From assembly GCA_023053545.1 (NCBI GenBank), contig JAKZAN010000006.1, positions 2,857,001 to 2,921,000 of the forward strand: a stretch of 64,000 nucleotides of DNA, written 5' to 3'. Under the pieces are notes generated by a model. That model worked only from the letters and a program-made list of their open reading frames with translations, had not been told where the DNA came from and did not search any database. Below are positions 4,160 to 63,046 of this stretch, in pieces (position 1 is the first letter of the stretch; each line of letters starts with the position of its first letter). The translations under genes and the position numbers were made by a program. The DNA comes from Lepidurus packardi. Taxonomy: Eukaryota; Arthropoda; Branchiopoda; Notostraca; Triopsidae.

Positions 4160-7100
4160 ATGTTTATTTACTTAAGCAAAAAGGTCTGTATCTTTATTTA
4201 AGAGGTAGACTGTATTTTATCAATGATAAAATCTTCCCCTAGATTGCTATTCCGAACAACACGAAGTTACACTGCATTTCTTGGAATAAAGAAGATGGGC
4301 ATTTAGCTTGTGGAGGAGACGATGGTCTCTTGAAGGTTCTGCGACTAGATTCTGGTAACTCAAAAGAGACGAATGAACATTTAATCTTCAACTCTATTTT
4401 AGGTAAGGATGGAGCCAGTGGAAAAGGATTGGCTGCTCAGTCTAATTTGTCCATGAATCAAACCTTGGAAGGTCATAATGGTACCGTCCAAGTTGTTGTG
4501 TGGAACGAGATCCACCAGAAACTAACTACTAGTGATCAGAATGGCCTTATTATTGTCTGGATGCTTTATAAAGTACGTCTCCTTTTTCTTGAAAAGAACA
4601 AATTTTAATTGTCTTGACCTGTACTTCAGGGTTCGTGGTTTGAGGAGATGATAAACAACAGAAACAAATCGGTAGTAACGAGCATGGCATGGGATGCTGA
4701 AGGTCAGAAGATATGTATTGTCTACGAAGATGGAGCAGTTATTGTTGGAGCTGTAGACGGAAACCGTTTATGGGGCAGAGACATCAAAGGCGTTAATCTT
4801 GTAGGCGTGGATTGGTCGCCCGACGGTAAACTTCTTGTGTTTGCATTACGTAATGGTCAAGTGCACGTTTATGACTACACCGGCCTCTTTGTGGTAGCAA
4901 GGTCCACAGTGTTTCTTTGACAAGTAATTAAGATTGTTTTCCTTTCAGTCCAAAGTCACCATTTCGTGCTTGGAAGGTACGAGCGGAACGTCGCCTAGCA
5001 TTGCAGGATTAGAATGGTACGACGGCAGAAACGGAAATCTGATCCCAGACGCTCCATCCTTAGCTATTGGTTACCAAAATGGACGTTTACAGATCATGAA
5101 GAACGAAAGAGACGAAGGTAAGTCCTGATTTTTCATAAAAATGGTATTATACAGTTTTTAATTGATCATTTTTCTTAGACCCAGTTGTTTTGGACTGTGA
5201 ATTGCAAATTTCGAAAATTCAGTGGAACCACAACGGCAGTGTTTTGGCGATAGCTGGCTGTTCCATGTCAAAAGTTGGAGCAGATAAAGAAACGCAATGT
5301 ATGCTTCAGTTTTATTCCCCATTGGGCGACTTGCTGCACTGCCTAAGATTGCCTGGTCAGAATATCTCAGCTTGCGCCTGGGAAGGCCTCTCGTTAAGAA
5401 TTGCCTTGGCAGTTGATTCTTACATTTACTTTGCAAATATTCGACCTACCTATATATTCTGTTACTTCGCTAACACCATGGTGTATGCTTTCCAGAAGAA
5501 AGAACGTGCGGAGACGTTTATCATGTTTTGGGACACCAAGAACAATGAAGTAAGCTTTTAAAATATGTAAGTGTTTTTGTTACAATTTGTAATTGATTCT
5601 AGCGCTACGTGAAACCTGTGAAGCAGCTTTTAGCCTTATCAAGCTATGGAGATCATTGTGTTCTGGCTACCAAGTTAGATGATGAATCTGGTCAATATGG
5701 TCTCATCCTGTGTAACGCATTGGGAACGCCAGTGGATAGTAAGCTCACTTTGTAAAAGATTAATATTAATAAAATGTGTATGTAATTTTTTTTTTAGGCA
5801 AATATATAGATTTGGAACCCTTATATGTTGCGGTGACTGCCTCCCATGTGTTTGCTGCATCCAAGAGCCATTTTTATGTATGGCATTTCAGGACACTGAA
5901 ATCTCGTACCTTGGAATTCTCTGGTGATTATTTAGAACTGCAAATTTTGGCATTGGCTGTGTTGTCTTAACGCGTCTGTTTTAGTAGTAAAACGGGAAAT
6001 TAAGGAAAAGGTTTACTTCATTGACAACATCGATGACGCTGAACCCAAAGCCAAGGAAGTGGTAAAATAACTTCGTAAAGGATGAAAATATACTAATGTG
6101 TTATTGTGGTAGACGAAAGACCCTATTTGCTGCTTGACTGCGTCGGATAAAGTCCTTATTATCGCAAGGGAGTCTGGTGTTATTCAAGCTTTTCAGTTAC
6201 CACGCGTAGCTTATATTGGGAAGAGTGTTTTACCTGTAAAACCACAGCGACTGGCCCTCAATTGCACTTCTTCGTAAGATTTTCTTTTATATTGTATAGT
6301 TCCTCTAGTGTGTCTGTACTATATCAAGGAAATTATCCATAATTGATATGAGTGGTCTACTGAACATATTCGGGATCGAGGACCTTGAACCGGGTTCTTC
6401 TCGCATGGGATCAATTGTCCAGTATTTATGAGTGTTATGCTGTTTTATACGTATTATAAAAAATCTGTTAGATTTGAGCGACGAGACGTGTGGGATATGT
6501 GCTGGGCTACGGATAATGAGGATTTGTTGGCTATTATGGAGAAAACTCGCATGTATGTACTCCGTAGATTGGAACCCGAAGAACCTGTTGTCAGCTCGGG
6601 CTACATTTGCCAGTTCAAAGTAAAATAGTACAAGAAAAAACAGATTAATTCAGAATATTTTATTTTATTTCAATAGGATTTGGAAATACAAGCAATTCAA
6701 CTGGACGAAATTTTAAAAACTCCTGAAAGTCCCCAAACGGAATTCTTGCAGCTAATGGAAACCAAATCCTTGCGAGATACTCGAAATTTGTTAGCCCAAG
6801 TGGGGATCAAAGAGGCTACTACGTATGTGGAGGAAAACACACATCCAAGGTTATGGTAAGGTTTTCTCTTTTTATTTGTTTCGTAGCGACATTCATAATA
6901 GCACAATTTTAGGCGTTTGTTAGCTGAAGCAGCTTTACAACCATTAGACTTAAACTCTGCCGAAAGTGCTTTCGTGCGATGTGGGGATTACCCTGGTGTC
7001 AAGTTAGTTCAGCGGCTCAGATCTTTGACTTCTGATGCTCTTAAAATGGCCGAAGTTTCTGCCTATTTTGGGGACTTCGAACAAGCCGAGAAACTTTATT

Positions 7101-8842
7101 TGGAAGCTGATAGAAGGTGAAAGCTCTGTACACTTTTATCTAGATTTTACATGTTTTTTTTTTTTTTTTTTTACGAACTTTTTAGGGATTTGGCTATTGA
7201 GTTATATAAGAAGCTGGGAGACTGGATCCGGGTTACGGAGTTGCAAAAAGGATCGCATTCCATTAGTGATAAGGAAGCCGAAGAAGCCTATAATGCCTTG
7301 GGTGATTATCATGCAGATCGCTTACAGTGGTAAAATCTAAGAAAGTGTTCATCTTTTTCGGTTTCAAACGCGGAGCTTTCTTTTAGGGAAGACGCTATGA
7401 AGTATTATGAGCTAGCGAAGAACAACAAGTGCTTGATAGATTGTTATTATCGTCTCGAAGAATTCGAACGTTTGGAAAAGTTGGTTGTGACTTTACCGGA
7501 GAACCATGAGTTATTGCCTTCGCTTGGTTCCATGCTAGCCTCTGTAGGAATGTGCGACCAAGCCGTGGCTGCATACATCAAAGTAAGCTCATCATAAGGA
7601 AGTCCAATAAGGCAAATATTAATTTAATCAATTCACAATTGCTTTATTAGTGCAATAGAGTTAAACAAGCTGTGGACGCATGCATTTTGTTAAACCAGTG
7701 GCATTCTGCAGTGCAATTAGCAAAGAAGTATGAAGTGAAAGATGTTTCTACTTTGTTGTCGTCCTATGCCCAGAAGTTGATGGAAGAAGACAAAAAATTT
7801 GAAGCTGTGGAGTTGTTTCGTAAAGCTAACAAATTTTTGGACGCTGGAGTTCTGCTTTACCAAGTAATTTAAATTACGATTTTTAGCATTTATCCTAAAA
7901 AGTTGCGTGACTTAAGTTAGCAGATGACGAGGTAGCTAGAAAAGCTTCACCAATGGCTATCAAAAAGATGTATGTAGCAGGAGCTTTACTGGTAGAAGAG
8001 CATCGTATCTTTAAGAAATCTTCTGCAGGTTAATTATTCTTTAATAACTTAAATGCGCTTAGAACGTCTAATCCGTAATTGAGTCGTGAGCAGGTTCTCA
8101 GCGTGGATTTTCGAATATATCCTTGGATGATAACTATGCTAGAGCCGCTAGACATATCGAAGCCCCATGGCGTGGAGCCGAAGCGTTTCACTTTTTGTTA
8201 TTGGCCCAAAGACAGCTTTACGAAGGTAAGATTCACCATGTACGTTTGTTAAGAAGATTGTGTTAGCTATTTTTATAGGATCTGTGGATGCTGCAATGAA
8301 AACGGCATTGAAATTGATGGAATACGAAGATTTGGTGCCAGAAGAAACAGCTTGCTGTGTTTTGGCCTTAGCGAGCTGTGCGAATCGTTGCTTCGCGCAA
8401 TGCTCGAAAGCATTTGTGCGCTTGGAAGCGTTACCAAACAGTACCGAAGCTATGGTAAATTGTCCGACATAACATAAGGCCATAAATATAAGCGCGAGTT
8501 GTAGGGAGAGGCGTACAGCAAATTAGCCATAGATATTTTCATGAAGCACGCACCTAAAGACTTGAACAAGGGTAATAGGATGGAGTGCCCTTCTTGTCGG
8601 ACTTCTATGCCCGATTGGTAGACTTATTCGGTATAATCTTTGAAAATGTAATAATTTTGCTATTTTTTAGGAGTACTTCTTGTATCCACTGTCAAACAAA
8701 ATATCATAGCTGTGTAGCGAGTGGGAGGCCTTTGACAGATATGACCATGGCATGGACTTGCCGCACTTGCCATCATTATGTGGCCGAGCAAGATATAATA
8801 ATTCGACTCACTTGCCCGTTGTGCCACGCACCGGTGCAATAG
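4160..8842 (+). CDS. WDR35: WD repeat protein 35 / IFT121, IFT-A complex subunit
   Basis: Core subunit of the IFT-A retrograde intraflagellar transport complex, needed for cilium assembly and ciliary membrane cargo; in arthropods it would act in ciliated sensory neurons. Exons inferred: 4160-4183, 4243-4354, 4403-4572, 4630-4893, 4949-5117, 5179-5549, 5603-5738, 5798-5923, 5985-6061, 6113-6273, 6329-6421, 6472-6619, 6677-6855, 6913-7116, 7186-7329, 7387-7582, 7651-7863, 7917-8028, 8094-8225, 8279-8454, 8505-8617 and 8671-8842, giving 1163 residues; the human protein is 1170-1181. The start [20 protein letters not shown] equals the vertebrate N-terminus. N-terminal WD40 propellers are followed by TPR-like helices and C-terminal CxxC zinc ribbons (MECPSC, CIHC, CRTC, CPLC). 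All exon phases close. Most introns are 48-70 bp. It looks fully intact. Confidence 0.97.
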
Positions 8843-10166
<1,324 letters not shown>

Positions 10167-13100
10167 TTGTACGAATGCCGGTACGGATTGCAACATCCAC
10201 GGGGATTGGCTTTGATCATCAACATGTACACGGTTGAAGGGCAAAGCGTTAGACTAGGCTCAGACAACGATGTAAGATGCTTAGAAACGCTTTTCTCGGA
10301 TATGAACTACGAAGTGATTACATGGATTGATTTAACATCTAATGTAAGTATAGTCTCTCTTTTCTCAGGAGTTTCGTTATTTAGCTATAATTTTAAATAC
10401 TTGACAGGAACTTTGGACAAATTTGAGAAATTTCGCTAATGATGAAAGGCATGTAACCGCAGATTCAGTCGTCGTTGTAGTCATGAGCCACGGATTCGAA
10501 GGCAATGACTTCACGATGTCTGCATTCCTGACGAAGGATGGGGAACGTCATGGTTCACAACAGATAGTTACTTCTATTGTTAACGTGGAAACATTGTTTG
10601 GAAAACCGAAGATTTTCATCTTTAACTTTTGCCGGTATTACTAATATAGTTTATTACGTGTTTTATTTGTATCACTGCCTTCTCCTCGTGCCTGAATTGA
10701 GCAGTGGTCCTTTCCATCACACTGGAGTAGAAGTATTTTCCGGTGAAGCTAGTAAGCGAAGTAGTTTCGTTGATGCTGGCATGGATGTAGTCGATGCTGT
10801 AATTACACCAATAATTAGATCAACCAGCACGGGAAGGAATTGCGAGGATGTGCTTATCTTTTATTCTACATTACCTGGTAATTTCAGCCTCTTACTCGAT
10901 AACAAAACCACTCATTGATCCACAGGTTTTGTTTCGGAGCGTCACGAATATTTAGGATCACAAGCCATACAAACATTTTGTAAGACAACCCAGGAGAACT
11001 CAATTCGTTTGGATGCTCATAATTTGTTTGATAAGGTATATAAGTTTAAAAAAAAACTGGACACTGATTGCTCTGACGTCGTAATAACGTAAGGGTTACT
11101 AACAGGTAGATCAAGAGTTGAAAGCTGCTGGTTGCCTTCTTACTCCAGAGTTAATCAAAAGAGGCTTTAACAAGAGATTTTACTTTTATTCGTACGTTGC
11201 CTTAAGGCAGCATTACATTGATAACTGCAAAGAGCCTTTGCTCCCTTGGTGTCCGGAGTACTCTTGGACTACCGAAGAAGTTTATGTAGACCTTTCACTC
11301 GATTCGGACAGAGGATTAGAATATTTCCAAGCAAATGAAATCTTCTACCGTGCCCAAGTAAATAACTTGACAAGTCATGCATGTCTACTTTGTCAAATTT
11401 GGCGTTTGGCTTCATTTAGGAGGAAAATAGGATCCTAATTGAAGGAGATGCTGGATATGGCAAGTCGACTTTGATGCGTAAGCTGACCATCGATTGGACT
11501 CGCGGCAAAAAATACTTACAACAATTTAATCTGGTGTTCCTGGTTAAGCTCAACGCTGTTGCTCAAGTAGTCAAATAAAGCAGTAAATGCACACTAATTA
11601 ATCACTCCCTATGGAAAAGATACATGAAAATCGAACGCTTGCGGAATATATGGAAGAAATTTATGGAGAAATTTTGAGAAACGCGGTGAGCGGATTCGGG
11701 AACATAGATGTTCTATTGAAGAGTGAACAAGCGTCCCGTATTTTGCTGCTTTTGGATGGCTACGAAGAAGCTGGGGAACAGATCAAGGGTGAAGTGAATC
11801 AAATCCTTAATGGACGCCAGTGGAAGGGATGCCACACAATACTAACAGCTCGACCTAAACGCATCCCAAGTGCCGCTATTTCCCGTACGCAGCGGATGTC
11901 TATAATAGGATTCGGTAAACCTCAAGTGAATTTAGCTGTTAGCAACTTCTTCATAAAATGCAATGGATTAACCAAGGAAATAGTGCTGGATGTTTTAAAA
12001 GACATCAAACCAACAGACCTTGAATTCATCAGAGTCAACACCCTGCCATCGCATCACCAACCCCACGCCAAAGAGGATTTTTCAGACTTCGTCAAAATTT
12101 TATCAAACGTAGAGCCTTACGTTTCTTTAACTAAATCCCCTCTCATGTGTATTATGCTCTGTTGTCTTTTTAAAGACAAGAAAGGCAAATTACCCAATAC
12201 CCGAGTGGACCTCTACTTCGATCTTATCAACCTCAACTTGTACCGTTCTGCCCTAAAAAAGTCCCCTGATGATGAATGGGAATGGGGTGAGCTTCAAAGA
12301 AACTTTCCCAAATCACATCGCGAAATTTTGGGGTTGTTTGGTGGTTATTGCTTTGAAGCTCTCAAAACCGACAATGTCTGTTTTTCTCACAGCAAGTTGA
12401 CCGCAAATGACAGCGAGCAAGGTGTTAGTGATATACTTAGTGAGTTAATGGAAGCTGGGGTAATCATCAGGGATACTGCCTTATCGACGAAGAACATGCT
12501 AAAACGTCAAACGTTTTACGTAATGCCTCATCGTACCTTTACGGATTTCCTTGCTGCTTACTACCTAAGTCTAATTAAGAATTCGGAGGAATTAAAACGT
12601 CTTGTAATGGATTTATACTTTCATGATTACGGGACTTTTTGCGAAGTTGGTTCCTATTTGCGGGACATGGACTTGCTGCCAATATTGGTTGACGCTTTGC
12701 GTCACGTCAAATTCCCTATCGAATTTATCTCATCTTCACTACATCCTAGTAAAGTTTTTAATGAAGATGGGTGTCAATGGCTCTTGCCTGCTTTACCCGA
12801 TATTGATATGTATTTACCCACAGGTGAATTTCCTAAACTTTTCATAGAGACCCTAATTTCGCATAAGAATAGCGTTAGACCTAACCTGTCTGTAGACCTG
12901 TTGTGCCACATGTCAGGAGCCACAGAGCAGTTTTGTGAATCAACTATTAGCAATTTTTCCCAGTCAGGGATTTTGAAGTCACTGACAATATATGGTAATG
13001 GTGTATGGGACAACAGCGTTAAACATAACGTTTTGGATAACAATTATCATCCCAAACTGGTTTTTAATGGTTCTTTATGTTCCTACAATCTGAACTGGGT

Positions 13101-14970
13101 AGAGTGGTATACGTCAAAGCGAGGGTTTGGCTTCCCTTGTGTAGAATTACCCCTTGAACTAATTGACAATGATAGAAAAGGATTAACACGTTTGCTGTCG
13201 TCTGAAAGCTGCCCAAGTAGTTTAACCCTGCTAGGTATTGTAGCCCCAGATTTCTATGCCGAAGTTTTCATATATTTGTTCTTCCTCAGGGAACATTAAT
13301 CAGCTGAGCACTGTGGCCAAGGCTTTGCAGGAAGCGCCAGATAATTGTAAGCTTACAGCCCTAAGTCTTGATTTGAAAAACGATCTTCACCGTGAGTTGC
13401 AGTCTAGTCTTGCAGTCTTACAGTCTTACAGTCTAGAAAATCTCACACCAAAGCTCTACAGGTTGGTTATTTAAATTCGTTTGTCGTTCGTAAATTATGC
13501 AAGCACAAAAGTAATTGTGAACGCAGCTGCATTCGCATGAGTTTTGAGAATGCAGTTTTGAGTCAAGAGTTCGTTAGAAAGAAGAACGACAAAGATATTG
13601 CATGTTTTTATGTGTATATAGGTAATTACTTATTGTTTTCAAACGAAGAAGTGAAAATGCTTTTGTTTGGACTATCTATTACAGAATCAACGAGCAAGCA
13701 GTGCAACAAATAAAACGCATTGTCGAAGTATTGGGTCGAAACAAAAAAGTGCATCGTTTCGCTGTTGCCGTGTACGCTACTCTTTCAACGTAAGTAATAT
13801 TGAGACCAAGTATCTTGGCTTTTCCTTCTCTACGTAACCTATTTCAGTTCAACAGATGTGAACAATTTGATTGGGCCAATTGTCAAAGAGCTCCCTTATT
13901 CCGGTAAACTCCACCACCTTTCTTCCTTGTGGATAGACGTACAAAGGACATTGCAGGGTAACGAGTTACGCGACCTGATTTTTGGCGTTCGTCAAAGTTC
14001 CTTAGAAAGTCTAACTCTCAAAAACATGGAATTAATGTTCACGGTAACGAAATTAATATTATACGTTCTTGCTCACGATGTCACCTTGCTGTTAGTTGAA
14101 AGATTTCTAATATAGGAAGCACATATGTTGAGTGCCACGGATTTCATACAAAGGGGGAATTTTCAAAAATCGCAGTGTCGACTCCGGAGCCTCGTTTTAG
14201 CGAGCATGAGGTTTGAGATGTTATCAGCACTGCAAAAGCGGATTTCCACACGAGCTTACAAGTTGGCTTTAGTCTCGTTGGATATACTGCTTATCCAATG
14301 TGCCCCAGAATTATTGGACTGGTTCTTTGAGAACATTTCTTTACCCAGCTTGCAATGCCTGAACTTGGAAATTGCAACAATCATTGTTACAGAACATGAA
14401 TGTTTGCATTTCAAAAAAATTCTGCAGCATGTTAGTAAGACTAATGGCAACACCTTGGAGAAATTAAAGTTACGATATGGGGCTCCAGACGATGAGAGCC
14501 ATGTGATTGTTCCTGTCAAAGAAAATGTAATGCACTGTACACATTTACACACCGTGCAACTTGATTTTCCCTTTAGCGGCAAATATTTCGTTGATTCTGG
14601 TTATATCTACTTTTCTACCGGGAAACTACCCAACCCTGAAACTGAAAATATGAATCCGTATTTGTCTTTGGCTAGAGTAGTCCTGGACTTACCTCAGCTT
14701 CGGCACCTGAGTTTTCCTTTAGTATCCCACGAACAATATAAAGAATATTTGAATGACTTTTTTCACGCTATCGCTGATCGTGCCTCGAAATGGACTGGGA
14801 GAAAAATTGAAGATTCAGCAAGTGAGGAAAAAGTGAAGCTTTCTTTGACAATAGAATGCCAGGGACAGGTAGCTGCTATGGCTGGAGGAGTTTTTAAACA
14901 ACGAGGAATAAAGTTTGAAATGTGTTATGTGAAGAAAAAGCATTACGAATTTTGGTTTCCGGAGTCATAG
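10167..14970 (+). CDS. Caspase-NACHT-LRR-like fusion (NLR with caspase domain)
   Basis: Exons inferred: 10167-10343, 10408-10634, 10705-10877, 10926-11035, 11106-11357, 11420-11566, 11620-13234, 13290-13461, 13685-13789, 13848-14043 and 14116-14970; all phases close on 1342 residues. Residues about 1-255 form a caspase domain: PRGLALIIN, the Arg of VRLGSDND, catalytic His87 in MSHG, catalytic Cys134 in NFCRG, then a p10 half ([23 protein letters not shown]). Residues about 314-560 form a NACHT NTPase: P-loop GDAGYGKST (322-330), Walker [10 protein letters not shown] (404-412) and sensor LTARP. An NLR helical region ([13 protein letters not shown]) and diverged LRR-like repeats follow to FWFPES. 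The 5' end is unresolved: 10167 follows an AG acceptor, so a prodomain exon may lie upstream. By family logic, ligand-driven NACHT oligomerisation could activate the tethered caspase directly; this is inference. The neighbours WDR35 and COPZ are unrelated. Confidence 0.9.
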
Positions 14971-15004: not shown

Positions 15005-15152
<148 letters not shown>

Positions 15153-18747: not shown

Positions 18748-19955
18748 ATGGAAAGTTATTTGACTGTAAGTTTGTTCATAATTAATTGTGAATTACGTTT
18801 CAGTGTTTGTTCTTGTATGTAATGCAACCAGGTCTGTTTTTTATCAGTTATTTTATATCATTCGTTCAAAGTGCTTGGAGGATTTAGTCCCTTACTTTAG
18901 CTAGAAGCAGTCACATACGTAGAAAAATAAATGAGGAGAGGGATGTTCTTATACACGTCATTCGTGCGAACGTCACCTAGAACAACGACTAATCCGTGCC
19001 AGCTTCACATACCCTATTAGCATAACTAATAACTGTTCTTATTCTTCCCAGGAACCGTCTATGTACACCGTTAAAGGGATTGCTATTCTAGATAATGATG
19101 GCAAAAGAATTTTAGCCAAATACTACGATTCTACCATATTCCCCAGTGCCAAAGAACAGAAGGCCTTTGAGAAAAATCTGTTCAACAAAACACACCGTGC
19201 AAACGCAGAGATTATAATGTTAGATGGCCTGACTTGCGTATATCGTAGCAATGTCGACCTTTTCTTCTATGTCATGGGCAGTTCCCAAGAAAATGAAGTA
19301 AAATCTAAATTTGTAATCTCACACTTAGCGTTAAAGTGTTTCTTTCTAGTTGATTCTCATGAGCGTGCTGAACTGCTTGTATGAATCTATTAGCCAGATT
19401 TTGCGGAAAAACGTAGAGAAACGTGCGTTATTGGATAATATGGATATCGCCATGCTGGCCTTGGATGAAATTTGCGATGGAGGGATCATTTTGGAGGCTG
19501 ATCCATCCTCAATAGTTTGGCGAGTGGCTTTACGAAACGATGATGTTCCTTTAGGAGAGCAAACCGTTGCGCAGGTAAACCAAATTTGTACTAATTGTAG
19601 TCAAGTTTTCAATGAAGCATGTTTCCAAAACCTTGCATCCCTAACAAATCTCATTCCTGGTATATGGGACTACGCGGGTCTGTAAAACTCATCAGGTCCA
19701 GAAGAAGCTGTCTGCCACAGGTGCAGTACGTTTTGAGTCCACAAGCGTGGAGTGTGAGCCTCTACTGCACTTGTTTTTGCCTCTTTTATTGCTCCACTTT
19801 CATCCATTTCACGTTTGGCCGGTTGTTTTCACAGGCGTTTTTTAACCGTCAACGATATGTATTTGGCTTCATTGTAGAGATTTATTATTTTGGATTGCGT
19901 TGTCTAGGTTCTGCAATCCGCAAAAGAGCAGCTGAAATGGTCGCTTCTGAAATGA
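18748..19955 (+). CDS. COPZ1: Coatomer subunit zeta
   Basis: Small subunit of the COPI coat for Golgi-to-ER and intra-Golgi vesicle transport; it pairs with gamma-COP and has the longin-like AP sigma fold. Exons: 18748-18765, 19052-19297, 19350-19574 and 19908-19955, coding 178 residues (human 177). The protein starts [20 protein letters not shown] and contains [20 protein letters not shown] and [14 protein letters not shown], ending [15 protein letters not shown], closely matching vertebrate COPZ. The start was chosen because the six-residue first exon aligns with MEALILEPSLYTVK in human. The 333-bp last intron stays open in another frame but has no recognised content. Candidate poly-A signals AATAAA lie at 20015-20020 and 20200-20205. 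Confidence 0.97.
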
Positions 19956-48527: not shown

Positions 48528-51500
48528 TTAGCGTGGGTAGCCTTTACAAGTTATACAACATCGTTTGCGGAACTCAGGAATAAGACAGTATCGACGCAAA
48601 ACTGGCAAACCGCAGTAATGTGATTCGTCTTTAGCACACTTTGTCAGCTTACAAGGATACATGTTTTCGCATTTTCTAATAAGATTTGGCTTAGGGCCAC
48701 AATCTAGGTCAAGGGTTTGTAAGACTGTAGTATTAGATGTATCGTTCTCGGAACTTGTAGAGCCGTTACTTAAACTGTCATCCTGGAAATTCTCACAAGC
48801 GAAGCTCATTGTTTGGGCACCGGCGCCGCAAGTTTGCGAGCACTGTGGGTAAAAAAAATCTGTTACTTAGTACTTCATTTGGCATAGCTAAATAGAATTT
48901 TACCTGTCCCCAACCCGTTTCCGTCCATTGACCAGGGCATATTTGCCTATTGCAAGGTCTGAGGTCATCGGGTTTGGGGTCTTTGCAGAACGCTGGATCA
49001 GCAAATGACTTCGGGTCTTGGTAAACAGGAAATTGTTCAACGTTATCCAACCCCTACGCACCAACAACAAGAATATGAATATTTTCTGTCTTTGTTGGGA
49101 TCCGCTGTTTGATTTTTAGCTCTAGCTCACTTCAGCATCATAAACTATTGGATTCCAGCTATTCACTTCGGGTATTACATCTGGTTTACCATTCGTTTCA
49201 TTTTCCAGATCGATTTTCTGCCTGGCCTCTGAAGCGTTGCCAATAGTAAGCACGTTATCAAGAATCTCGTTGTCAGTTCGGTTTGGCAAAGAGTAGGCTG
49301 GAGAGTAGCTCAAGTGCATACTTTTGATCAGTTTGGTCTTGACGCAGTATAACATTCGCATTTGTACTCCGTCCTGGCCACAAGTTTGACTACAGCTTTC
49401 CCACGGTCCCACAACCCATCGGAAATGACAACTATAAAAGAAAAACAACTTAATAATTTTATTTCAATGTGTTTTGTTCTAGATATATACTTGAAAACGT
49501 TACAAAATCGAACATTTGTCATGGGTTCTTCCTTTATAGTTGAACAGTAACGTTTTTTGGTGATGCGTTTCAGTTTTAGGTCCCTGCACATTGCCACTTG
49601 ATTTTGTAAACCTCCACCACAAGTTTTAGAGCAAGGTGTCCAGCCAGCCATCTCCCACGCGTAACGATTTTTGTCTCTTTCTTCTTTGACTTTTGTTTTG
49701 GGTGGGACGCTCCAACTCGCGGTAACGTGAACGATTTCTTTGGTGGACCCCGGAGTAATCTTCAAATTGCAAGAAGTTGTTAAAACGCAGTCGTTAGTTC
49801 TTAGTTGATTAAACACCGTAATAATATTGGTAATTTTTGGGAAAATTACCATGAGAAGCAAGTCACTGTGTAAAGGCCCTTGAGCGCGTAAAGTTTCCTT
49901 GCCCTGGGTGTTGGTATAAATGAATCTTGTTCCATGAGTGATAACCACGTCGTTAAAGTCCTGGCCGCGTGTATCGGGGGCGTGATATACCCATTTACGG
50001 CTTTTACGGTCCATTAATGAGAGTGTATGCGAGGTACTTGGCGTCTCTTCAATTATAATGTTGCGCGCTCCCCTTGGCAAAACCACCATTCTTCGATGAG
50101 CTGGTTGGGAAAAATCTGTTTTCTTGCATTTTTCTTTAAAAAGTCTCGCTCAAGGCTTACGTTCTTTCGGTCTTCCATGGTACTGGCGATCTACGACGGT
50201 ACAATTTGCAATTCTCCCTCCACAGACACCGCACTCATTTTCTCGAATATTCGAACCGATTCTGCGATCACACCCCACCACCAAACATCGTCCCTATTTT
50301 TTTCTATTCCATTACTAGCAATTCAATTTGTTTGAGCGAAGATTGTACCTGTATACAGATCTTGTGTGGCTCTTCGTAACTGCATGGCGTCCCGTCAATG
50401 ACGAGCTCTTGGGTCCTAAAAATTTCTCCCGTTTGTTGAGCTCGGCAGGTAAGAAAGCATTGAAGGGTTTCTGGAAGAGCTTACGGTTAGTCGGGGTAAT
50501 TTCCAAAACAAGATCAAAAGTCTAAAGGGATACTTTTACCATTGTTAAGTTGCCAGGGTAGCCAAGAACGCTTGTCTCTATTGTCCGTTCCTAGCATATG
50601 AGGCAATAAGCGGCATTGTTCGGCCCTAAAGTCGCTAAGTTTTTTACATGGAAGCGTATTACAAAGCTCGAATTCCTCAGTGGGCCCCTGGCATTGCTTT
50701 CCTCCATTGAGAGGTCTAAGAGGAGAGGGTGTTTTCAGAAGAAAAATTGAATTGCGAAATTACGATGGGTTATCACATTTACGGGACCGAAATTTTACAC
50801 CCGTTCCACAAGTACGAGAACAAGCTCCCCATTCCGTCCAGGCAGACCAATCTCCATCTCGGGGGTTTCGAGCCACAGGGCTCTCAATTCTGCGTCTTTT
50901 TCCAACTTTCTCGCAATAGCCTCTTACACACCACTTTTGTTGGTAATGAGACAAATATTATCAAATTGATTTCCTTTAAAGCATTTTTTTTAGTTAAATT
51001 TTACCATATCTAGCCCACAAACAGTTCCTTCTAAGGGCGGTCCTTTCTTGGTTTTGCATAATTGGGGACTTGAACGATGGCCACACCATAAGTGTGTACA
51101 AGGATCTGTTGTTCCGAAAGATCTGCATAAAGCGTAGCCTTCACCAAACTCCATGCGACATTGCTCGTCTAAACTGTAGCTAGACTGGATCGAAGATTGG
51201 ACCACTGTGGCGTTCAAGCCTTCTGGCTGGTTTCGCATGCATCGCCAGTGCCTATCAAGCAAATTCGCCATTGAAGAACTGCATAGTAAAAGAGCTGGCT
51301 GCCTAAGACTTACTCTTTTTTTAAGTGGTACTCGTAGTGAGTACACTTGGACCAATGGAAGCGACTGAAAGTGGCTGCGACCATAGGCGCCATTACTGAT
51401 CCTTGCACTGCTTCATCAATACAGTCATTGGCGGCGTTCACATCTCCATCGTGACTAAATCCTAAACTGCAAAAGCCAAGCTTGAAGGAATCTTAAAAGC

Positions 51501-53105
51501 AATATTTTGGGACTTGAGAGAAATTTACACGTGGCCAACTTCGTGGGCAATGATGAACGCTGAAGTAAGGCCTTCGTCACGGTTTAGGGAACAGCTGCGT
51601 TCAGAATCACAGACCCCAGAAACCGGAGCGTAGCCTGAGGGTCCTCCCAAGTCCAACCTGGTAAGCCATACAGCTACATCATGAGGATGTTGAGCTGCGT
51701 CGCCCCGCAGTAAAGCCGAGTTCCAGCTATTGACATTTTCCAAGGAACGTTTCGAATTGCCTTCACGGACCTAGTGAGTTATACCCTCTTTAATAACCGA
51801 GATCTATTGAACATTTTGGAGTAAGTGTTACCTGTCCGAGTTTGCGATCCTCCAAGAAAACTAGACGGGAGATGACTAAGCTCATGTTAGCCTCCAATGA
51901 TGTATCCTCATATATCGCGCTTACCTAATTTGATCATATATACATAGGCCAAGGTTACATGAAACAGAGTTACGGAAACTTTTACTATATTCATTAAGGT
52001 AAGGACGTATTTTTGGACATGGCTTTTTCCGTGGAACTTGATAACTGTATGGTCCACCGCTATCGCCATTTCGAGCCACTTTTGCGCGTCTTGGATTCTA
52101 ACCTTCTCTTCTGGCTTCCGGCGTTTGGCTTCCTGTGGTTTGTCTATAAGTGTTTCAAAAAATGCAAACTTAATAAGTAATAACGGTTTATTTTTAGTCA
52201 TCTTTTACATTCTGGCGACTCCCAAAGTTTGTCAGGAGCGTACCCGTCCCAGTCCAACACATCGTTGCTAGTTTCGTTTTCACTTGTGGTCTTATCTTCG
52301 TTTTCCTTCGTTTTTAGTGAGTGTGTCTCGTTAATTGACTCCGGAATCGTATAATTATCGGGTGGCATTTCAGGAATGGTGTTATCGAAGTAGTCGTCGT
52401 CATCTTCGATATCCTCCTCGATGTAATAATCGTCAGTTTCTTCGTCAAACGTGTCTAAGACCTCGTTGCCTTCTTCATCGTAATCGACAGATCTTTTTCT
52501 CCTACGTGCGGCATTCAAATGTTGTCTGTAGTCTTGGTCGTAAGCTAACGCAAGAAATGAATCCTTGTCTTCAAGGGTGTATAACAGGTGTGGAATTTTC
52601 CCTTGTTCATCTACGGGTGAAAACGAATCTCGTTCCAGGAAAAACGTTTTATTGTGGACTTGAATAAGTCCACTGAAGCCATCGCAGATGTTGAAGGCTA
52701 CGACGGAATCCCGTTCAGCGGTCTTCACGATCCCGGAATATAAACAGTCTTGAGCGTCTTGAAAGGGACGCTCTTTCCAATGCTCTCCCGCCTCTGTAAT
52801 CCACTCAATTATTGTGTGGGCGGTAATTATGTGTCTGCTTGGTTTTAGGCTCAGAATCATAGAATGGGATGGTCTTTCAATGACAATTTCCACCAGACCG
52901 TTACCTACTCCGCCAATGGATCTTTTATTACGTGACGTGATGGATGCGCCTCGTTTTACAAAAGGATATACCACTTCACCGGTCTGTATTAGTTCAACTT
53001 TTTAGCCCTGTACGATCTTGTATATTATTAGCGATTTGGACTTACCCCAATGACGCTATTAACAAGGAAAAGCAATCCTGTAAGCACAAACGAAGTTACG
53101 TACAT
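48528..53105 (-). CDS. ADAMTS metalloprotease, ADAMTS2/3/14-like
   Basis: Secreted zinc protease of the extracellular matrix. Fifteen minus-strand exons: 53105-53046, 52983-52209, 52143-51986, 51924-51832, 51770-51529, 51466-51314, 51278-51005, 50933-50764, 50715-50540, 50470-50349, 50293-50161, 50115-49491, 49431-49131, 49053-48904 and 48842-48528. Phases close on 1248 residues (human ADAMTS2/3/14: 1205-1223). Order: signal peptide [20 protein letters not shown]; propeptide with RRRKRS furin site and an acidic Asp/Glu/Tyr stretch; reprolysin domain ([11 protein letters not shown], zinc site HEVGHVLGFSHD, SVMAPMV Met-turn); disintegrin-like; TSP1 ([12 protein letters not shown]); Cys-rich (CGVCGG); spacer; three further TSP1 units; C-terminal PLAC ([12 protein letters not shown]). 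Spacer motif [14 protein letters not shown] resembles procollagen N-proteinases. It appears catalytically intact. Confidence 0.95.
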
Positions 53106-54244: not shown

Positions 54245-57200
54245 CTATCGCCGTTCATCATCTTCTTGCTCTTCGTCGCTTTCTTCTTGATCTTCTTGGC
54301 TAACTGCTGTTGCATTGCAATTTAGCTCATCAGCTCCATCAGAGCAGTCACGGGTAGAATCGCAAATTTGATCTAGGCGAACACAAGTACCATCGCTACA
54401 TACAAGCTCGTCTTGTCCACAAACATCCGGCTCCTGAAAAGCATTCTCGGGACTAGGCAATCGATGCGCACTAGAAGCTGCCGGTCCTAAAGCAGCAAGT
54501 CGCTCTATAAAAATCATTATAAATTCCACATAAAAGTTCTATTCTTAAAATACTAACCGTCTCGTAATGTACAATCTTGCTCATCGGAACCATCTGAGCA
54601 GTCTTGGTTCCCATCACAGCGCCAAGTTTTGGAAATACACAACCCGCTATGCTTGCATTTAAAATCCTCTCCTTCGCAAGCCACACTTGTACAGTTCACT
54701 TCATCGGAATTATCTCTGCAGTGGCTGCTTCCATCGCAAACCCAACCTCTTGGAATGCAAGAAAGTCCATCGCGACAGCGAAACTGTTCTTCGCTACATG
54801 CTAGCATAATATCCAATTAAATTCCCCTGCATCACAAGCTGTGAAACGAAAAGAATGTCGCCTTACTTTCAGGGGATGCGCAGTCACGCTCATCTGATCC
54901 GTCAATGCAATCCGCTCCTCCGTCACACTGCCAACTTCGTGGGATACAACGATTTTCTTTTCCGCACCTGTCGAAAATTTCTATAAGAATACCATTTAAC
55001 ATGCAATTGTAGCTATTTACCTAAATTCATGCTCTGTGCAAGAGGGGCATGAAGTCTCGTCGTTTCCTGTGCTGCAATCATTGCTACCATCACAAACCCA
55101 AGCCTTTGGTATGCACGTGTGATCTGCACAACGGAATTCCCCTTGAAGACACTGTCCATCTTTGGCTAAAATCGCACAAAATCTTTAACAATCATAAGAA
55201 AACTACGTGACTAAGTTACCTCTGGCTAAATTAACGCAAATTTCAGGGTCGTCAGAATCTGGAAATTGTTCGCACTCAAACACTTGCGCCAGTGGCAAAG
55301 CAGCGAGGACATATTCTTGACAATCCCCTGCCACAGCTAAAACACACCAAGAAAAAGAAAAAGGAATTTATATCGAACAAGAAAAGACAAACTACTGTTT
55401 ACCTTTACAAAACTTCCTGCAAGGAGGTAAATTGACTCCCCCAGAGCAAGACGGTTCCAAAACGCTGCACATGTACTGTTTTACACGCGGGTGACATTCA
55501 TAATTGGCTATAATTTCAAAGTACGGGATACTCAAATTGCGTTCAACTTCACTACTGTCGCCCACCCAATTAGGCAATCTCGTTTCCATGTATGGCAGGA
55601 CTCCTCTGCAAAACGGGAGTTTACGTGGTTCGCAGACTCCTGAAATTATTGAGCAATGAGTTGCTTGAATACAAAACACATCCATCAAATACTTTACCTG
55701 GAGTTTGCCTGTTATCAAGAGGCACAAATGACGTTGTCAATTTTCGATTCTCGTGGCCAACAATAGTCCGGGATTTGTCTCCATTGCTTTTATCCTTAGC
55801 CGTTGTAAAGAGTCCAGGTACCACAGAAGCCAATCCCATATCTCTCATAATAGAAAGAGCTTCGAGATCCATATCTGAATCTGCGTCCGACTCGGTCGAA
55901 TTTACAGCCTCAAGTTCCGGATCCTCAGTTACAATCATCATGGGTTTAGTCATCTTAGGGCTTGAAGTCGTCATCTGTACCAACGTAGTTAAGTTAAATA
56001 CCAGTTTCGCGTCTGCAACCCCAGTAATGGATTCTCTGTGTTCTAGTTCCTTCATAGGGTTCACATTGGCTTGGTCGTTTTGACGAGCGGGTGTGGACAT
56101 GTCGAAAACTTTGTGGTTGGAACCATCAGGTACTAATTCGAGTTCGTCTTCGTTGGAAGTCTCTTCGCTACCACTGATATTAATTCCATTCACAGGGCTT
56201 CGTTCTTCGTTTTCTTCTTCTTCTGATAGTTGCACTTGTGGAGTAGAAGTAATCATAATTTGACTACGCGTTATTTCTGCCCGGATCATTTCTGTCGTAG
56301 AAGAAACTACCGGGTTGTCCTCAGTACTATTGGATAAGTTCATAGCAAGAGGTTGCCAATCAGAATCATCCAAGTGCATGGAGAAGTTTTTGGAAAGGTC
56401 ACTGAAGATAGGAATGCCCGTAGAGTTATTTTCCGAGGTAGGTTTAGTGTCTTTCACAATAAATAGCGGATGAGTAGGAGAAGTAACAACTTCGTCTGTA
56501 CTAGGTCTACTTTGAGCGATTTCAAAGGTAGATCCCCCGCCTTGACTACCTCGGACGATAATATCGAAAAACGAGTCCTCTTCGACGATTTCATCTCGAT
56601 CGGTGCTTTCCTCGCTAGCTGCTACATGGCTGACATTTTGGAACATGTTGGCGTCTCCCATGGACTCTGTTGCCAATTTCGACTCTTTCGAAATATTATC
56701 AGCAAGGTCATGAATGGCGTCCAAACTGGACGGTAACATGTCGTCTTCATCTTCACCTGGTTCGTCGATTCCAAAAACCATGTGAGGTAAAAGTGGCAGT
56801 TTATCCTCGACCTTGTCTTCTTCTAAACCAGTCACTTCGGGCTGTTGATCTGGTTGGGGCTCTTTCGAATGAAAATGAATAGTTTCGTTCATGTTTCCTA
56901 ACGATGGATGGCTAACGATGATATCATGTTCGTCGCCTAAGACACGGTGCTCAACAGGAAGTTTGCTGACCGGTCTATCTTGATTGTTCTCATGCGTGTG
57001 ATTCAAGGCTGCCTCCACGTGTAATATTACTGGTGTGGAATGAGACTCATTGCCCATCACGCCAAAGGTAGGAAAAAACTTTGTCTTGTCTTGCATGAGT
57101 TCAGTTGGCTCTTGCTCCTTTCCTTTTTCATCTTGGGAGTTATTAAGGCTAACGCTATGCACGTCGCGCGCTGGTGACGGCCAAGCAGGTTGGATGATGC

Positions 57201-61408: not shown

Positions 61409-62881
61409 TTATTTTAGGGTAGTTATCAAACTAGCTAACATATTGAGCAAAGTAGAGCGTAGGTTATCATCACAATGGCTAAGTTTTGCGTTAGCTTCAT
61501 TAAAGATGGAGGATTCAATTTTGGCACCCACTAAGAATGCCAAATCCATGCCGATGTCCACATCATGATTGAGGAAACTTAGGGATTCGATCATGCCTTG
61601 ATATACAGCCATTTGCACTATATAACCAGGACTGTATTCGCGCGTGACAGTGAATCGTGGAGTTTTGCCAAATCTCCATTCCCAGCTAGCGAATTCCTGG
61701 CGCAGTTGGCCCAACCCTGAAGCGAAACAAACCACATAATGCAGTCAAGTATGTAATGCTAGACTTGACAAAGGCAAAGAACAGGATTAAGTCCACAGCC
61801 TGGTAAAAAAATGACGGAAAGAGAACACAGGCAAGGAAACTTCGACGGATGTGATGATGACACTTACCAGGAAACCATCCTTCGCTGGGATTGATCAACT
61901 GGTAGCCTCTTGCTGACTCTTTGTTGGCCTTATTGGGCTCCAAAAAGAGAGATCCAATGGCAGACTGGATTTCTTCCAATGTCAATTGCAATCCTAAGGA
62001 TGACAAGTTGGATATCGTAGACCGGACACTGGCGGTGGCTTTGCTCACCATTCCTAACTTCCAAACCAAGAATAAAACTATACAGATTGTGTCCATTTAT
62101 CCCTGGTCAATTTACCTCTTCTGGTCTCAAAACCTGACTTAGGTTGGCAGTATCTACATCTACCAAAACGGTGCAATGATGATATGCGTTCTTTCCACCC
62201 AGTTTGGCAGCAGTACCGGAAATCTAAACAGAGGAGGCATGGAAACGGTTAAACTACTTGACTTTTTGCGTTCGTTCTGCAAGCAACTTCAATTACCTTG
62301 TACTTGTTGTTTAGCATAATATCTTCCCGTTCATTGATGTCAACAGGAATTTCCCAGTTGGTTTTCAGAGCTTCACAAATTAGTTCCAAATTCCGTTTTC
62401 TGTGATAATCAGCTCTGGTAGTAAAAAACGTACAATTCAAATTGCCCAGATCATGGTATACTGTCCCTCCACCACTATTTCGCCTTGCGAAAGATATATC
62501 TAAGCTAGGGAAAATTCTGACATGAAATAAGAAGATTACGGTATCGGTGTCAGTTTTACCATTTTTAGCTAGCAAGGACAGGTTGGCTTCCATCCAAGGG
62601 TTCTGATGCCGTCCAATAACCACACAAGGTTTATTTTGCCATAGTAAGAGCACTTGGTGTTTCGAAAAATCAAAATGACGATAAAGCCAATCCTCTAAAG
62701 CTAAATTTGTAAAGATATCGTCAGATTGAGAAATAAACACTGAACGACAAACTCTTGCATCTTTGCACGCACTTGTGAAAGTTCTTTTCATATTTATCCG
62801 ACAGATTTTCTGTGCATTTTTCAAGTTAGAAGTTGTCACGCTGAAACTGTGCTTGAAACTATGCATTGCCGTAAACAACAT
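61409..62881 (-). CDS. LIPT1: Lipoyltransferase 1, mitochondrial
   Basis: Transfers lipoyl groups to E2 subunits of 2-oxoacid dehydrogenases in mitochondria; lipoate-protein ligase A fold. Minus-strand exons 62881-62560, 62499-62297, 62223-62116, 62057-61868 and 61716-61409; 376 residues (human 373). Motifs: NLALEDWLYRH, LLLWQNKPCVVIGRHQNPW, ARRNSGGGTVYHDLGNLNCT (lipoyl site), KISGTAAKLG with the conserved lysine, YHHCTVLVDVD, GWFPG and WEWRFGKTPRF. The N-terminus (MLFTAMHSFKHSFSVTTSNL, then basic residues) fits a mitochondrial targeting peptide; a second ATG six codons in is also possible. An AATAAA overlaps the stop codon on the minus strand. No defects seen. Confidence 0.95.
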
Positions 62882-63046
62882 TATGAAAAAATTTAATAAG
62901 TCGGCAGTGGGACTATTTGCACCACATCAGGAGGCTATCTATACATACAAACTTTCAAAGACAGCAACAACGTTGCCCCTGGACGCAGGCTACCAGAATG
63001 CTGACACGGTCTCCGGATTTACTGAATGTGTAAATGTATTCCTTTA
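62882..63046. other. Upstream flank of LIPT1
   Basis: Short region between LIPT1 and the inverted-repeat element. It presumably holds the LIPT1 promoter; no specific element recognised. Confidence 0.4.

Follow-up and report, generated by a model that had tools for sequence, protein, structure and literature searches.

Does this arthropod genome encode a receptor with a caspase of its own, the protease and a NACHT domain being joined in one protein chain? The question is raised by a locus in the window, a stretch of 64,000 nucleotides (contig C5, positions 2857001-2921000) of the 108.6 Mb, 344-contig genome of Lepidurus packardi. To our knowledge, the activation of caspases by NLRs is absent from most discussion of arthropod immunity.

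Structure and domains of the window gene

The gene was rebuilt as 11 exons on the forward strand at window positions 10167-14970; spliced together, they code for 1342 residues without interruption up to a stop codon (Table 1). Each of the ten introns, 48-223 nt long, has GT..AG borders and preserves the frame. The eleven in-phase exons and the 1342 residues given in the earlier note were thus confirmed on the rebuilt splice model; its span holds the exons as described but not the first coding exon. By the model, position 10167 follows a splice acceptor and is not the gene start, which puts the predicted first coding exon upstream. Since a second gene of the same kind, on contig C4, opens in the same phase with a 27-nt exon (ATG...GAG/GT), the start exon of the window gene is probably the one at 9669-9677. 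The C4 exon encodes nine residues and, with only these ahead of its caspase, a prodomain appears to be absent.

Table 1. Features of the caspase-NACHT gene in window coordinates (a slash marks a splice junction)
Feature	Position	Strand	Basis
Probable first coding exon, ATG GAA GAG/GT, encoding Met-Glu-Glu ahead of the caspase	9669..9677	+	phase 0 fits exon 10167; analogy with the C4 gene
Exon: p20 start of the caspase, PRGLALIIN, substrate-pocket Arg29	10167..10343	+	Peptidase_C14 26.0 bits (ORF of this exon)
Exon: p20 of the caspase, catalytic motifs SHG and NFCR	10408..10634	+	Peptidase_C14 35.2 bits
Catalytic His87 codon	10489..10491	+	sequence
Catalytic Cys134 codon, within NFCRG	10630..10632	+	sequence
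Exon: intersubunit linker (Asp158, Asp162, Asp165) and p10 start	10705..10877	+	spliced model
Exon: p10, second pocket arginine Arg198 in FVSER	10926..11035	+	spliced model
Junction exon: caspase C-terminus RGFNKRFYF, then directly the NLR linker	11106..11357	+	spliced model; same junction in the C4 gene
Exon: NACHT P-loop	11420..11566	+	NACHT 41.8 bits
Walker A, GDAGYGKS	11444..11467	+	sequence
Exon: remaining NACHT and what follows it, with a family-conserved stretch	11620..13234	+	spliced model
Walker B, LLLLDGYEE	11743..11769	+	sequence
Exon: C-terminal region	13290..13461	+	spliced model
Exon: C-terminal region	13685..13789	+	spliced model
Exon: C-terminal region	13848..14043	+	spliced model
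Final exon with stop codon: C-terminal domain conserved in the NLR family, ending in YEFWFPES	14116..14970	+	24 invariant columns, 8 members

On the same strand, a WDR35/IFT121 gene occupies window positions 4243-8841, with about 830 bases between its end and the probable start exon. The first caspase exon in the model is preceded by long TA repeats at about 10020-10136, and the stop codon is followed by others at about 15009-15150. Other neighbours recognised by Pfam in the window are of the clathrin-adaptor small-chain type (18935-19384), ADAMTS-like pieces (49328-53001), an Fz domain (55392-55736) and a lipoyl ligase (62249-62926). The genome also holds at least 150 matches to Chitin_bind_4, the RR cuticle protein family (150 of the 266 candidates were scored), which marks it as that of an arthropod.

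Searched with Pfam, the spliced protein matched Peptidase_C14 with 114.6 bits (E 7.2e-33, profile positions 1-232 of 233) and NACHT with 69.8 bits (E 3.3e-19, positions 2-164 of 167). Matches of single exons were weaker and the p10 exons alone gave none, as is expected because each exon holds part of a domain. Against the PDB, the caspase half found caspase-3, CED-3 and Dronc at E about 1e-14, and the NACHT profile of the family found NLRC4 (3.8e-12), NAIP and NLRP3, with E from 4e-12 to about 5e-9. His87, Cys134, Arg29 and Arg198 are each conserved in the C4 gene; their roles as catalytic pair and S1-pocket arginines we take from caspase-1. The active-site pentapeptide of both genes is NFCRG and not QACxG, a form that is common in caspases without being universal, the Dronc site being different as well. 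The domain does not appear to be of metacaspase type, its nearest relatives in the PDB search and the caspase tree being animal caspases and the genome's own caspases. In the NACHT, Walker A (GDAGYGKST) and Walker B are intact, and the domain is, judged by its profile, of the animal NLR type. No Pfam match to CARD, DED or PYD was obtained in the model of either gene or in three ORFs of 52-57 residues upstream of the window gene. The complete caspase (with His87, Cys134, the p10 pocket motif and Peptidase_C14 across its profile) and the intact NACHT claimed earlier are therefore upheld; of the profile searches proposed as a check, those for Peptidase_C14 and NACHT gave matches but that for LRR did not.

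The label "LRR-like" that had been given to the C-terminus finds no backing in Pfam or in profile searches against solved structures. A profile of eight family members gave no match in the PDB at E<=1, and none of the eight matched any LRR family of Pfam. The loose LRR motif was counted 10 times against 6.1 expected (p 0.07) and reached p<0.05 in two of the eight last exons of the family, and the strict motif was counted 0 times. The fold predicted from the single sequence had a mean pLDDT of 34 and was useless for this region. At its end, the C-terminal region of 460 residues holds a domain conserved in the family; aligned across the last exons of eight genes, it has 24 invariant columns.

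The second gene, the NLR family and the origin of the caspase

A search of the genome with the caspase half, together with a scan of the fetched stretches with the model, led to the second caspase-NACHT gene on the minus strand of contig C4 at about 11.2816-11.2873 Mb. Its model comprises 954 residues and stops short of the last exon, which is open and homologous to that of the window gene. The two proteins are 35% identical across the aligned stretch and their caspase halves 36.8% identical (93 of 253 aligned positions). Both retain the catalytic residues His and Cys, the pair of pocket arginines and the motifs SHG, NFCRG and GDAGYGK[ST]T; that the caspase motifs persist at such an identity is what one would expect if function has been maintained. 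The intron phases (0,2,1,0,0,0) are identical over the exons that run from p20 to the long NACHT exon. No caspase-NACHT gene beyond these two was found by tblastn over the fetched stretches of loci L001-L018, L019-L038 and L039-L042.

With the caspase and linker of the C4 gene as the query, the genome gave 52 matches, namely 37 NLR linker exons, 5 further caspase exons from the fused pair of genes and 10 matches in a caspase cluster on contig C6 (10.06-10.09 Mb). Genome-wide, a linker exon continues backwards into a caspase in two of the 37 cases, the window gene and the C4 gene. Two linker rows that start early (query positions 274 and 278) were rejected, with an in-frame stop and no caspase in the fetched upstream stretches. 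A cluster of NACHT NLR genes, with 19 NACHT rows, lies at C1:1-600000, and one row each was found on C17 and C18.

The upstream parts of 14 caspase-less NLR genes were read (L033 and L034 were left out, and L031 was read and lies outside the family). In 12 of the 14, which are related genes and not independent cases, the position of the caspase is occupied by a short stretch of the pattern [VIL]x[IVL]G, a four-letter pattern that is weak by itself and that we take to resemble the RHIM core. This RHIM-like stretch, which sits before the NLR linker, is carried by L023, L024, L025, L027, L029, L032, L035, L036, L009, L011, L012 and L043; examples are STVHIGTRFENQGN, GSVNIGNNFEMHG and DTVIIGNHN, and the poorest are NINLG (L032), KLHIG (L029) and VSVGG (L043). 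It was not found upstream in L044 and is doubtful in L010 (SLSVG beside a stop). These genes are possible amyloid-signalling NLRs in an arthropod. When the motif was sought in 11 loci, mostly caspase-bearing, nine scattered pattern matches were obtained and none lay in a caspase N-terminus, so that there is no Rosetta-stone support. Since two of the 37 linkers are fused to a caspase and 12 of the 14 other genes carry the RHIM-like stretch, the caspase appears to be an N-terminal effector that can be exchanged within this NLR family. By eye, long open frames resembling mobile-element genes adjoin the NLR genes at L027/L028 and L035.

Stand-alone caspases are arranged in tandem at C6:10062000-10087000 (L002, L004, L005, L007), and the two that were read have the active site FQFCR, with Gln retained. 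A C6 stand-alone caspase has introns in common with the fused ones: in phase 2 behind the codon of the active-site Cys (TG[CT]CG/GT), in phase 1 after ST(L/V)P and in phase 0 before VD; the C6 caspase also has a nearby phase-0 intron ahead of the p20 exon. The caspase tree covers nine copies from this genome, several being partial, and has no metacaspase row; in it, the two NACHT-linked caspases pair on long branches (86/84, not starred) and are joined to the C6 pair with support of 100/99. The C6 caspases are thus likely kin of the fused one. The NLR tree was built from nine NLR NACHTs and five outgroup rows, genes with no 400-residue open frame being left out. Here the window gene branches first, followed by C1b (83/82), the C4 gene and then the caspase-less rest, and a tree that holds both caspase-bearing NACHTs together was rejected (p-AU 0.0025). 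Each tree has few rows, and the caspase-NACHT genes examined come from one species. The trees disagree, the NACHTs standing apart and the caspases paired, and the caspase therefore behaves like an effector module that was either retained or transferred. An old fusion, with the caspase later replaced in other lineages, would fit both trees and the shared junction; the alternative of two fusions, or of a caspase transfer between NLRs, would take fewer changes on the NLR tree alone. That an adaptor-free animal inflammasome with an active caspase was ancestral to the NLR family, and that a RHIM-like amyloid stretch later took its place, is a tentative proposal that we think rather more likely to be wrong than right. 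If true, a single arthropod NLR family would show both a built-in executioner and an amyloid-recruited one.

Proposed activation of the caspase and rival readings

We favour, with a probability of roughly 60%, the reading that the window gene encodes a single-chain, adaptor-free, inflammasome-like protein whose caspase would be activated by NACHT assembly. It is drawn from the full-length C14 and NACHT domains in one model, the shared junction exon and the finding of no death-fold domain. NACHT NLRs oligomerise upon nucleotide exchange, and initiator caspases are activated when brought together. In the window protein, the C-terminal region would sense a signal or hold the protein off, and binding of the signal would lead the NACHT ATPase to exchange its nucleotide and the protein to oligomerise. 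Oligomerisation would crowd the N-terminal caspases, which may then dimerise like initiator caspases and become active. The active caspase would probably cut its own p20-p10 linker, with VVD/A at Asp165 as the candidate site, and would then cut cell substrates or downstream caspases, and the infected or damaged cell would die. Proteolysis would thus be triggered with no CARD, DED or PYD involved. With sensor and executioner in one chain, the adaptor would be dispensed with, a sound inference; the start exon, oligomerisation, activation, cleavage, ligand and outcome are predictions from the gene model. Asn in place of the active-site Gln, which occurs in both fused genes whereas two C6 caspases keep Gln, could weaken Asp binding.

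A rival reading is that the model merged two neighbouring genes or recorded a rare read-through. Within the junction exon, flanked by introns of 70 and 62 nt, the end of the caspase passes unbroken into the NLR linker, and the C4 gene has the same junction inside one exon. The two-gene reading was rejected, as it would split this exon, which is stop-free in both genes; the matching intron phases speak against it too, as do the nearby introns of the window gene, which at 48-70 nt leave no space for a promoter or a 3' end. Two separate genes at the locus are very unlikely, and this is the least probable reading that we considered. Caspase and NACHT thus share one open spliced frame, with a junction exon common to two genes. 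Nor do we give much credence to the gene being an inactive, decaying relic, a view that the long TA repeats on both flanks might invite but that is at odds with 1342 open codons and with splice sites, Walker motifs and catalytic motifs that are all intact.

The change from Gln to Asn in the active site leaves room for another view of the caspase domain. It might be a pseudo-protease or platform, the oligomer recruiting the stand-alone C6 caspases and activating them by heterodimerisation, much as FLIP activates caspase-8. NFCRG instead of QACxG in both fused genes, and the presence of close stand-alone caspases in the same genome (joint clade 100/99), argue for such a role; we nevertheless hold it to be unlikely, as His, Cys and both pocket arginines are retained in two diverged genes and as Dronc is active despite its non-QACxG site. 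More improbable still is an integrated decoy, in which the caspase would bait caspase inhibitors or proteases of a pathogen and the NLR half would signal in another way. This would suit an NLR family with variable N-terminal parts and has a precedent in plant NLRs with integrated decoys, but the caspase occupies the effector position of the NLR, where other genes have the RHIM-like part, and the model shows no second part of an effector kind.

Relation to known systems

A built-in caspase fired by NACHT assembly, the reading that we prefer, can be set beside receptors of other organisms. By profile, the window NACHT is related to those of the vertebrate NLRC4, NAIP and NLRP3. These inflammasome receptors recruit a separate caspase via CARD or PYD, whereas that of the window gene is part of the chain.

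In bacteria, the metacaspase-NACHT-WD40 architecture is called widely distributed in passages of one study, where 15 sequences (2.2% of those studied) have a NACHT (PMC3501461). Passages of another, on fungal NLRs, describe N-terminal enzymes such as metacaspase as common in complex bacterial STAND proteins and the all-in-one form as possibly ancestral (PMC4986451). The window protein resembles these metacaspase-NACHT(-WD40) proteins, as far as those passages describe them, in uniting a caspase-fold protease and a NACHT in one chain. The bacterial proteins are of metacaspase type with WD40, whereas the window caspase is closest to the stand-alone caspases of its own genome and its NACHT is of animal type. 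Fungal protease receptors are described in parts of PMC12881547 as clustering with gasdermin genes; a few of these receptors, a small subset, are NLRs that have the protease at the N-terminus. They likewise have sensor and protease in one chain (PMC12881547, PMC4986451) but differ in the protease, which in the same parts is mostly a serine protease and in some cases CHAT (PMC12881547). A search of the present genome for gasdermin, run with no positive control, gave no match. The earlier claim of an undescribed system cannot be kept in principle, since sensor and protease in one chain are, on the passages cited, established in bacteria and fungi (PMC3501461, PMC4986451, PMC12881547).

Among animals, passages on amphioxus report TNFR-caspase and LRRs-caspase fusions and DD/DED-NACHT genes (PMC2575513). 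Like these shortcut genes, the window gene joins animal receptor parts to a caspase, but the main-text passages of that paper contain no one-chain caspase-NACHT (PMC2575513). Crustacean NACHT NLRs are represented by the shrimp LvNLRC, and a tree legend in the same paper lists Daphnia pulex (PMC12370184). In its main-text passages, the N-terminal region of LvNLRC has no assigned function and a caspase is not mentioned (PMC12370184). In an open-licence library, no paper has the phrase "caspase-NACHT", and the papers listed by title or abstract included none on a true animal caspase on a NACHT NLR. Public proteins were searched in ways that have no bearing on other arthropods: the whole model gave one match among 6002 candidates, a NACHT-LRR protein with 23% identity, none of the 7994 scored for the long NACHT exon matched it, and a six-member NACHT profile gave eight weak NACHT proteins among 8000 scored. 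No relatives of the window gene were found among viral contigs.

A receptor with its own caspase makes it possible to test directly if NACHT assembly is enough by itself to fire a caspase. In such receptors sensing and killing may need no go-between, and the fused genes point to caspases as a possible output of the far larger family of NLRs that this genome encodes.
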